Assembly (NCBI GenBank): GCA_007692435.1 | Contig: RECA01000102.1 | Location: forward strand, 1-35,343 | DNA length: 35,343 nucleotides | Direction of reading: 5' to 3' | Source: Thioalkalivibrio sp. | GTDB lineage: Bacteria > Pseudomonadota > Gammaproteobacteria > Ectothiorhodospirales > Ectothiorhodospiraceae | Shown here: one piece after another, positions 26,933 to 29,860 of the stretch | Layout: the number at the start of each line of letters is the position of its first letter | Position numbering within the stretch: the stretch's first letter is position 1 | Translations under genes and position numbers: made by a program | The notes under the pieces: generated by a model | The model's database searches: none | Told to the model about the DNA's origin: nothing | The model's input: the letters and a program-made list of their open reading frames with translations, nothing else

Positions 26933-27118
26933 ATGACACGGAACCGGGACTTCAAGAAGGACCCGAGCACGGAATTCAAGGACCTAGATGACCTTCGCAA
27001 GCATGAGGCAAAAGACGAGATCGACGCGCTTCGGGAAGGGATCGAATTCCACGATCACCGGTATACGGACCGCCGAGCGCAGTGTCTCCCTCAGCCCCGC
27101 TTCACGGCCTTTTCGTAG
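26933..27118 (+). pseudogene. 5' remnant of an NAD-dependent DNA ligase gene
   Basis: Sixty-one codons from ATG 26933 with GAGGGA upstream. The pattern DPSTEF, then DDLRKHEAKDEIDALREGIEFHDHRY matches the adenylation-domain front of NAD-dependent ligases, whose usual run is LRE-I-x-HDYRYYV. After Tyr at about residue 44 the family would continue with YV-DPxIsDAEYD. Here the frame changes into an unrelated tail (TDRRAQCL...) and stops at 27118, inside the antisense 3' end of the next gene. So over 90% of the gene is gone. The five-base spacing to polX shows that the two formed a repair operon. A real short protein of unknown role is the less likely alternative. Confidence 0.72.
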
Positions 27119-28434
27119 AGCCCCGGGAACCGGCCCTCCGGATCGCACTCGCGCTTGAGGGACTGGTAGGTGTCGCGGTCGTATTCCGACCAGAAGGTCG
27201 CCTCGTCGTAGGTGCTGCGCGAGTACAGGCTCTTCTTGCCACCGTGCCGGGCCACCAGTTTCTCGACCCGCGCGTTGTAGTGGCCGTCCGGCTCGCTGGA
27301 ACGAACCATGTCCCAGAATCCGAAGTTGATGTAGGGCGTATCGGTGCGCAGTTCGAACAGGGAAAAGCGCCCGTCGGGTACCACGAACGGGCAGAGCCAC
27401 ACCGGCCGGATGCCGATTTCGGCCTCGAATTCGGCAAGAAAGGCGGCGGCATTGGCGATCGGGATGTCGACGTCCTGGATCACCGACTCGGTCCGCGGGC
27501 GGAGGCTGGCAACCGCCTTCAGCGGCCAGTGGTGACTGGCGCGCATGATCTTCTGGTAGGTGATGCTCGACAGGCGCTTGCGCCCGAGCACGAGCCGCAC
27601 CGGCGCGAGGTGTGCGCCGAAGTTCCCGCTGCACCAGAACCAGTCGGTATCCCAGCGCCACAGGTAGTCATGGATCGTGAGGTAATCCTCGCGCCGCTCG
27701 CGCAGGCTGCGCCAGTACTGGCGCATCCAGGTGTAGTCGCTTGCCGATGTCCCCGCAGGCAGCGACTCGACGAAATCCGCTCGGGTGAGGACGAGGTCCT
27801 CCGGGCCGAAGTACACGCCGTCGAGGTAGGCGCAGGTCGGCCGGGTGCATTCTTCCCGGATTGCGGCAAACAGCGCGTCGGGATCGCTGTAGCGGGTGTG
27901 TTCGAGCCGAACGTACGGCATGACCGGGATCAACCCGATGCGAACCCGCGTTGCGTAGCCGAGACTGCCGTAGGAGTTGGGGAAGCCGTAGAACAGCTCC
28001 GGGCGCTGCTCCGGGGAGCAGGTCAGCACGCGACCGTCGGCCACCAGCACGTCGAGTTCGTGGGCCGTGTGGTGGACCAACCCGTAACGGAAGGCGCTCG
28101 ACTCGATGCCGACGCCGGTCATCGCGCCGCCGACCGTGATGCTCTTGAGTTCCGGCACGATCGCCGGGGCCAGGCCGTGCGGCAGGGTCGCATCCACGAG
28201 ATCGGCATAGGTCGTCATGCCCTCGACCTCAGCGACTCCGACCGTCTGGTCAACCTCGATCACGTGGTTGACCTGGGTCACGTCGAGTTCGGTGCGCTCG
28301 ATCGCCTCGCGCGGGCGGAACAGGTTGCTGGTGCGCTTGCGCAGGCGCACCGGCCCGCGGGACTCGGCGAGCGCCTGGCCCAGTGACTCTACACGCGCTC
28401 GGTGCGCGGCCCACTCTTCAGCGGCGCGGCTCAT
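27091..28434 (-). CDS. FAD-binding oxidoreductase, partner of the adjacent methyltransferase (TmsA/BfaA-like)
   Basis: A 447-residue flavoprotein of the VAO/PCMH type. The FAD-binding half shows EVDQTVGVAEVEGMTTYADL and VGGAMTGVGIESSAFRYGLV; the second half resembles DWF1/DHCR24-like reductases. It starts three bases after the methyltransferase gene, a tightly coupled pair. In actinobacteria and some proteobacteria such pairs make 10-methyl-branched fatty acids: the methyltransferase forms a methylene branch on an oleoyl chain and the flavoprotein reduces it with NAD(P)H. The same job is inferred here. It could act on another methylenated lipid. Confidence 0.8.
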   Translation of the reverse strand: MSRAAEEWAAHRARVESLGQALAESRGPVRLRKRTSNLFRPREAIERTELDVTQVNHVIEVDQTVGVAEVEGMTTYADLVDATLPHGLAPAIVPELKSITVGGAMTGVGIESSAFRYGLVHHTAHELDVLVADGRVLTCSPEQRPELFYGFPNSYGSLGYATRVRIGLIPVMPYVRLEHTRYSDPDALFAAIREECTRPTCAYLDGVYFGPEDLVLTRADFVESLPAGTSASDYTWMRQYWRSLRERREDYLTIHDYLWRWDTDWFWCSGNFGAHLAPVRLVLGRKRLSSITYQKIMRASHHWPLKAVASLRPRTESVIQDVDIPIANAAAFLAEFEAEIGIRPVWLCPFVVPDGRFSLFELRTDTPYINFGFWDMVRSSEPDGHYNARVEKLVARHGGKKSLYSRSTYDEATFWSEYDRDTYQSLKRECDPEGRFPGLYEKAVKRG

Positions 28435-28437
28435 CGC

Positions 28438-29568
28438 TCAGCGCACCGGCACATAACGCGCCACATCTCCCTGACTGAGCACCAACTGCCAGAGGTTGAG
28501 ACCCCGCCACCGAAACGCTCCGGCCGTACTGTTCAGGTAATAGCGCCACATGCGGTAGAAGCGCTCGTCGAGGCCATCGCGCCCCTTCAGCTCCGGCCAC
28601 GCAGCCAGGAAGTTCGCCTCCCAGGCCTTCAGGGTACGGTCGTAGTCCGGGCCGAAGTTGTGCCAGTCCTCGAGCACGAACAGGCCTTCCTTGGCACGCG
28701 TGAGCTGGGCTTCCGAGGGGATCACGCCGCCCGGGAAGATGTACTTGGTGATCCACGGATCGGCCGTCGTCCGGCTCTGGTTGCCACCGATGGTGTGGAT
28801 AAGCGCCAGGCCGCCCGCCTTCAAGCGCGACCGGGTCAGTTCGAAGAAGCCGCGGTAGTTCTTCGGTCCGACGTGTTCCATCAGCCCCACGCTCACCACC
28901 CGGTCGAACGGTGCCGGTTCGTTCGTCGCCTCCCGGTAGTCGCGCTGGTGGATGGTGACGGGCAGGCCTTTGCACAGGGTGCGCGCATACTCGACCTGCT
29001 GGCGGCTGATGTTGTAGCTGACGACCTCACAGCCGTGCTCATCCGCCAGGTACCGGGCAAGCTCGCCGAATCCGCCGCCCAGCTCCAGCACGCGCATGCC
29101 CGGCTCCAGGTGCAGTTTGCGGGCGATCAGCGCCAGCTTGGCGCGCTGCGCATCGTCCAGCGTGGGCTCGCTTCCGTCGGCGCCGTAATAGGCGCAGGTG
29201 TACTGCATGGTGGGCCCGAGCATGGCCTCGTAAAGGCGGTTCGAGAGATCGTAGTGCTGTTCGGCCACCTGTCGCGAACGGCGGCGATTCTGCAGGTTGC
29301 CCATCCGACTCAGCACGATCCGACCCAGCATTGACAGTGACCGGAACTCGCGATCGAGTTCCGCCCGAAGCACGCGGGTGAAGAATTCGTCGAGCCGCTC
29401 GACATCCCACCAGCCATCCATGTAGGCCTCGCCCGCACCGACGGTGCCCTCGGCCAGCACGCGTTCATAGACGCGATCGTCGTGGACCTGCAGGTCCCAG
29501 GGCCGTGCACCGCCGATCTCGATATCGGCGACACCCAGCAATGCGGCCACTTTCTCTCTTGCGGACAT
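28438..29568 (-). CDS. Cyclopropane-fatty-acid-synthase-family methyltransferase (TmsB/BfaB-like or Cfa)
   Basis: A 376-residue SAM-dependent methyltransferase acting on double bonds of phospholipid acyl chains. It is close to E. coli Cfa along its whole length (YMDGWWDVERLD, QYTCAYYG, EHVGPKNYRGFF, DWHNFGPDYDRTL). Of the residues around the catalytic bicarbonate of Cfa, Glu231, His258, Ile260 and Tyr309 are kept. Cfa Cys139 in the GCGWGG motif is Gly165 here (LELGGGFGEL). The start is ATG 29568 behind GAGAAG. With the FAD oxidoreductase gene three bases downstream, a methylene or methyl-branch product is as likely as a cyclopropane. Confidence 0.9.
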   Translation of the reverse strand: MSAREKVAALLGVADIEIGGARPWDLQVHDDRVYERVLAEGTVGAGEAYMDGWWDVERLDEFFTRVLRAELDREFRSLSMLGRIVLSRMGNLQNRRRSRQVAEQHYDLSNRLYEAMLGPTMQYTCAYYGADGSEPTLDDAQRAKLALIARKLHLEPGMRVLELGGGFGELARYLADEHGCEVVSYNISRQQVEYARTLCKGLPVTIHQRDYREATNEPAPFDRVVSVGLMEHVGPKNYRGFFELTRSRLKAGGLALIHTIGGNQSRTTADPWITKYIFPGGVIPSEAQLTRAKEGLFVLEDWHNFGPDYDRTLKAWEANFLAAWPELKGRDGLDERFYRMWRYYLNSTAGAFRWRGLNLWQLVLSQGDVARYVPVR

Positions 29569-29860
29569 GATTCTTCTCGCAGCCGGGATCGAATGCGCTT
29601 GAGCCCTGGCCGGTTCGGGGCTCGCGGACACTCCCGGCCGGAGCAACCAGTGCAAAGAGTACCCGGCCCTTCCCCCCATCGGTCAAGTGGGATTCACGCC
29701 CCGTGCCCATGAGCCAAACCGGGAAGGCATGAAAGGGCCGTGGGTCGGAACGCCGGACAGCGTCAATGCGAAGCACCCTGAGCGTTAAGTTTGACCACGC
29801 AGCCCCGGCTAGTGAGCATCTACACTCTAGGAAGGCTCACCCCAACGGGGAGGAAAACAC

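Follow-up and report, generated by a model that had tools for sequence, protein, structure and literature searches.

A Cfa-clade methyltransferase coupled to a BfaA-family flavoprotein in Thioalkalivibrio, a probable operon for mid-chain methyl-branched fatty acids

Fatty acids with a 10-methyl branch, among them tuberculostearic acid and the 10-methylpalmitate of the Desulfobacter type, are used as biomarkers and are sought after as starting materials for lubricants. The methylene product from which they derive needs a prior 1,2-hydride shift, as labelling work on Mycobacterium has indicated. In the bfaAB (= tmsAB) system, BfaB carries out the methylenation and BfaA then reduces the product with NADPH (PMC5660069, PMC7791843); the T. 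curvata BfaA uses NADPH and not NADH (PMC7791843). The formation of 10-methylene acids has been shown experimentally for both BfaB and TmpB (PMC7791843, PMC5660069), the latter encoded by the tmpBA genes of gammaproteobacteria and Desulfobacteraceae, in which 10-methyl fatty acids are known outside the Actinobacteria (PMC7791843). In cyclopropane fatty acid synthase (Cfa), the SAM methyl is transferred to the double bond and a bicarbonate takes the proton, leading to the ring (PMC11387697).

The window, that is the whole 35,343-nt stretch of Thioalkalivibrio sp. DNA analyzed here, carries a methyltransferase gene followed directly by a gene for an FAD oxidoreductase, both being uninterrupted reading frames of the minus strand, with the following features:

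28438–29568, minus strand: methyltransferase gene (376 aa; ATG at 29568, TGA at 28438)
28879–28881, minus strand: Met230 codon of the methyltransferase, directly before the bicarbonate ligand Glu231 (E. coli Glu239) and equivalent to E. coli Cfa Phe238 by aligned columns
28435–28437, minus strand: three-base gap coupling the two genes (junction TGA-GCG-ATG)
27091–28434, minus strand: FAD oxidoreductase gene (447 aa; ATG at 28434, stop at 27091)
27628–27669, minus strand: family-diagnostic flavoprotein motif DYLWRWDTDWFWCS (residues 256–269, C-terminal part)

The direct coupling of a Cfa-family methyltransferase to an FAD oxidoreductase, as described in the first-pass annotation, is borne out by this junction and by Pfam matches to CMAS (PF02353, E 1.6e-73) and FAD_binding_4 (PF01565, E 1.1e-14). 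An alternative, longer in-frame start of the methyltransferase lies at 29679. With PolX on one side and a protein with an aminoacyl-tRNA editing domain on the other, the operon appears to comprise two genes. A promoter and terminator scan of the region returned no promoter and a terminator count at chance level. We also noted a small unassigned ORF (61 aa; 26933–27118) after PolX; its end and that of the oppositely oriented FAD gene overlap.

The flavoprotein shows full-length homology to the BfaA orthologues of Tsukamurella, Nocardia, and Nonomuraea (42–45% identity) and, in plasmid records, 42–50% identity over ~94% of its length to actinobacterial BfaA orthologues and a Variovorax protein, while other FAD proteins in these records mostly match only the FAD domain (~30% identity). 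The gene order in the Tsukamurella locus L028 (recR, ybaB, amidase, SRPBCC/cyclase, FAD protein, methyltransferase, dnaX) agrees with the bfaAB locus of Machida et al. (PMC5660069), which identifies the matched FAD proteins as BfaA orthologues. The window protein has the block DYLWRWDTDWFWCS in common with the Variovorax protein and actinobacterial BfaA proteins, with nearly every position invariant in 27 sequences, and the AlphaFold model of the protein has a pLDDT of 86.5. Judged by this homology, the flavoprotein is a member of the BfaA (= TmsA) family, and we propose a role as a methylene-fatty-acyl reductase. An identity as a sugar, sterol, or cytokinin oxidase was considered and rejected: the PDB sequence matches, to cytokinin dehydrogenase and DprE1, are largely confined to the FAD domain; fold matches to these same enzymes, at 15–20% identity, reflect the general superfamily; and the NCBIfam models of such oxidases fall well short of their cut-offs. 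A grouping with sugar or sterol oxidases, which the first-pass annotation had named as evidence against its reading, was not seen, and the FAD tree also speaks for BfaA-type membership.

The annotated match to the TmsB/TmsA and BfaB/BfaA systems holds for the flavoprotein but not for the methyltransferase, which shares 49% identity with E. coli Cfa and 31–36% with actinobacterial BfaB and the Variovorax partner (33–36% for BfaB alone). The methyltransferase scored 502 bits against the NCBIfam cyclopropane synthase model PRK11705 (cut-off 400) and matched PDB entry 6BQC at E 1.2e-111. Two trees, one of 113 sequences and one of 82, from which columns 237–240 had been removed, place it within a clade of 11 BfaA-linked enzymes (support 99/95), which is nested inside a 40-member E. 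coli-type Cfa clade (100/100). As in E. coli Cfa, all bicarbonate-site residues are kept (Cys125, Glu231, His258, Ile260, and Tyr309, equivalent to E. coli Cys139, Glu239, His266, Ile268, and Tyr317). By its placement in the trees, the enzyme belongs with the E. coli-type Cfa proteins and is not a BfaB/TmsB orthologue, and we propose that it is a converted cyclopropane synthase, acting as a 10-methylene-fatty-acyl-phospholipid synthase.

Besides its coupling to a reductase, the window enzyme differs from E. coli Cfa at positions 197, 237, and 238. An unbiased scan of 378 alignment columns, comparing reductase-linked with solo enzymes, returned as the best separating column that of E. coli Cfa Phe238, beside Glu239 (overlap 0.04; the runner-up, Thr197 to Asn, 0.21). 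MFEH is the motif at this place in established cyclopropane synthases (E. coli, L. acidophilus, and A. aeolicus), whereas the window enzyme has LMEH, with Leu in place of Met237 and Met in place of Phe238, and also has Asn in place of E. coli Thr197. The MFEH/Phe238 criterion for cyclopropane synthases was derived in the present comparison and is not a published one. In an enlarged set, the TmpA-linked genes of which were found starting from locus L136, Phe238 is present in 79 of 101 solo enzymes and in 0 of 158 linked enzymes (0/114 BfaA-linked, 0/44 TmpA-linked), counts that are non-independent because the tree requires about five trait changes. A phylogeny-corrected test offered four informative contrasts, a number that cannot reach significance alone, and all four lay in the expected direction (p 0.125). 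Within the Cfa clade, Met237-Phe238 occurs in 28/28 solo enzymes and Phe238 in 0/11 members of the window clade. The residue is likewise absent from every BfaB and TmpB protein compared, these being homologues and not the assayed proteins themselves.

The 22 solo enzymes that also have no Phe238 comprise three TmpB-clade genes lacking a detected neighbor, three UfaM-like genes (of which one, L281, adjoins DUF1365), and 16 actinobacterial paralogues. Given these, the loss of Phe is common to all reductase-linked enzymes yet is no proof of a reductase, and the simple rule that an enzyme without Phe238 has a reductase partner is false in one direction, as the actinobacterial solo paralogues show. 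At loci L325–L338, actinobacterial Cfa paralogues that stand unpaired carry the motif MGEH or MAEH, and some of them adjoin DUF1295-like genes. We infer that the aromatic residue beside Glu239, which the window enzyme lacks, would influence whether the cation closes or rearranges. We regard as evenly poised the broader proposal that Phe238 is a switch between cyclopropane and methylene products, lost several times and each time together with a flavin reductase of one of two unrelated types (BfaA or TmpA) exchanged between lineages. With this sequence clue at position 238, the choice of Cfa-family enzymes between ring and methylene is testable via single-residue exchanges and, given that automatic annotation would name the window gene a cyclopropane synthase, the signature could correct many database names.

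Within the genus, every locus with a complete copy of the window-type methyltransferase has the FAD gene directly downstream. Both genes of the pair are found in 8 Thioalkalivibrio genomes, which appear to include Thioalkalivibrio sp. AKL19 and ALE14; two further methyltransferase matches without the FAD gene are contig-end fragments. Across named loci of BfaA-type proteins, an adjacent CMAS-family methyltransferase on the same strand was seen in 59 of 80, and closely similar pairs were further found in Wenzhouxiangella, W. sediminis among them, and in MAGs from soda lakes. The pairing of methyltransferase and flavoprotein is not chance. The BfaA-linked methyltransferases occupy four positions: the BfaB proteins of Actinobacteria, a clade mostly from betaproteobacteria, the Cfa clade, and, in the case of L089, the TmpB clade. 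A single clade for all of them was rejected (p-AU 2.7e-5, with L089 excluded from the constraint). The FAD tree is incongruent with the methyltransferase tree, with the partners of Cfa-type methyltransferases at four places. Given that four methyltransferase clades stand beside BfaA-type reductases and that one origin is rejected, partners appear to have been exchanged, and exchange between lineages would be the simplest reading of both trees. A direct case of this kind is L089 (2702–5332, an uncultured Chromatiaceae MAG), where a BfaA-type reductase adjoins a TmpB-clade methyltransferase.

Taken together, the pair is very probably a two-gene lipid-modification operon making mid-chain methyl-branched fatty acids. 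In the first step, the Cfa-derived methyltransferase would use SAM to methylate the cis double bond of a phospholipid-bound acyl chain at its distal carbon, and the resulting cation would undergo a 1,2-hydride shift with loss of a methyl proton, instead of ring closure, to give a 10-methylene (or 12-methylene) chain. The FAD enzyme, by its homology to BfaA, would then reduce the methylene to a saturated mid-chain methyl branch with NADPH, the cofactor being assumed by analogy with T. curvata BfaA. The two-step logic of methylenation and reduction put forward in the first-pass annotation is supported, but its substrate and product, oleoyl chains and 10-methylstearate, are not favored: given the major mono-unsaturated chains in Thioalkalivibrio are 16:1 delta9 and 18:1 delta11 (PMC8092127), 10-methylpalmitate is expected as the main product, alongside 12-methylstearate. 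The novelty that it saw in such lipids outside actinobacteria also has to be reduced, since mid-chain branches are already known there from tmpBA (PMC7791843) and from 10-Me-C16:0 in Thioalkalivibrio (PMC8092127), and since BfaA-type pairs are common in Proteobacteria. The pair would be a third lineage combination for making 10-methyl fatty acids.

With bfaAB (PMC5660069, PMC7791843), the locus shares a full-length BfaA homologue, a two-gene operon, and a CMAS methyltransferase with the bicarbonate site kept. It differs in that its methyltransferase comes from the Cfa clade and is not orthologous to BfaB, the methyltransferase gene comes first, and residue 238 is Met and not Thr as in BfaB. 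The pair, most likely functional, would work like bfaAB, yet is no member of it by its methyltransferase. With tmpBA (PMC7791843), it shares the order B then A, the gammaproteobacterial setting, a likely C16 product, and the absence of Phe238 (Leu in tmpB-type genes, Met in the window); however, TmpA, a flavoprotein of the geranylgeranyl-reductase-like kind, has no relation to BfaA, whereas the window partner is of the FAD_binding_4 family, and most TmpB-type enzymes form their own clade. We noted a further tmpBA-type operon at L136 (1483–3602), in which an E. coli-type Cfa-like gene (motif ILEH) is directly followed by a geranylgeranyl-reductase-like gene; its methyltransferase lies in the Cfa clade beside a Phe-bearing solo enzyme (100/100).

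Three strong CMAS genes are present in the window genome in addition to the methyltransferase of the pair. One is a solo enzyme with MFEH (L010, contig C5, 1758–2936), present in nearly all congeners and probably the genuine cyclopropane synthase in Thioalkalivibrio. The second (L009, contig C176, 4796–8249) lies in a row with an amine-oxidase-type flavoprotein and DUF1365, a UfaD/UfaO/UfaM-like arrangement that makes it a candidate furan fatty acid cluster; its CMAS gene has MFEA in place of MFEH. The third is short and near a DUF1295-like membrane protein. Searching with a TmpB protein, we found CMAS-family genes in 29 of 30 genus genomes, the best copies retrieved being C5-type with MFEH except for TmpB-type genes in two genomes, one of which has an adjacent TmpA; no TmpA homologue was found in the window genome at E 1e-15. 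The window pair is patchy in the genus, in contrast to the ordinary C5-type Cfa found nearly everywhere, which accounts for the cyclopropane fatty acids of the genus. According to the lipid values taken from PMC8092127, T. versutus AL2 at 30 °C has 19.3% 10-Me-C16:0, 0.8% 12-Me-C18:0, and unsaturated 10-Me-C16:1, T. nitratis ALJ2 has no 10-methyl fatty acids, and both have ~40% C19 cyclopropyl acid. As far as these values go, the two profiles fit a near-universal cyclopropane synthase together with a patchy 10-methyl system. The TmpB-type genes of the two genus members could likewise make 10-methyl lipids, which counts against assigning them to the window pair.

The main alternative is that the methyltransferase is an ordinary cyclopropane synthase, with the flavoprotein acting on another substrate or with another methyltransferase of the genome. 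The score against the cyclopropane synthase model, the complete set of bicarbonate ligands, and the identity to E. coli Cfa are all what such an enzyme would show, yet against it stand the constant co-occurrence of the enzyme with a BfaA-type reductase, the coupling of the two genes, and the loss of a Phe238 that is invariant in the 28 solo Cfa of the same clade and missing in all homologues from the methylene-forming BfaB and TmpB families. With a separate MFEH-type enzyme already in the genus, we consider this alternative unlikely.

A furan-type pathway, in which methylation with a double-bond shift is followed by desaturation by the flavoprotein, would follow the known logic of the Cfa-like UfaM and the flavoprotein UfaD, which also act on phospholipid chains (PMC7380195). 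We rejected it for the pair on the partner families and regard it as highly improbable: UfaD is described as akin to phytoene dehydrogenases/desaturases and has an NAD-FAD-binding domain, which puts it in another family than FAD_binding_4, and UfaO has DUF1365 (PMC7380195), whereas the neighbors of the pair are PolX and the editing protein, with no DUF1365 or phytoene-desaturase-like partner, and the amine oxidase-DUF1365-CMAS cluster sits elsewhere, on C176. Just as improbable, in our view, is that a methylene or unsaturated methyl-branched acid is made and that its slow or regulated reduction yields a mixture shifting with temperature. The T. versutus values from PMC8092127 do shift in this manner, with 10-Me-C16:1 falling from 3.9% to 1.7% between 10 and 30 °C and 10-Me-C16:0 rising from 3.4% to 19.3%, but an ordinary precursor-product series explains this equally. 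The reading of the pair as a methylenation-reduction operon is the one we retain.

Several BfaA-type loci from various bacteria have no adjacent methyltransferase (L043, L045, L048, L051, L055, L058, L066, L069, L070, L077, L080, L081, L094, L097, L100, and L110), and their partner, if any, must be encoded elsewhere. At L099 (3671–3967) and L086 (3425–3949), short ORFs upstream of the BfaA-type gene resemble methyltransferase remnants and are apparently decayed partners. A complete bacterial-type pair is found on an archaeon-assigned contig (L062, 2793–5254, in a record named Woesearchaeota), which more likely reflects a binning error or transfer. Finally, in a Prescottella plasmid (L029, 261–8683), a region with a TetR and a Rieske gene is duplicated in inverted orientation; BfaB- and BfaA-type genes are part of it, the latter with an apparently broken reading frame.
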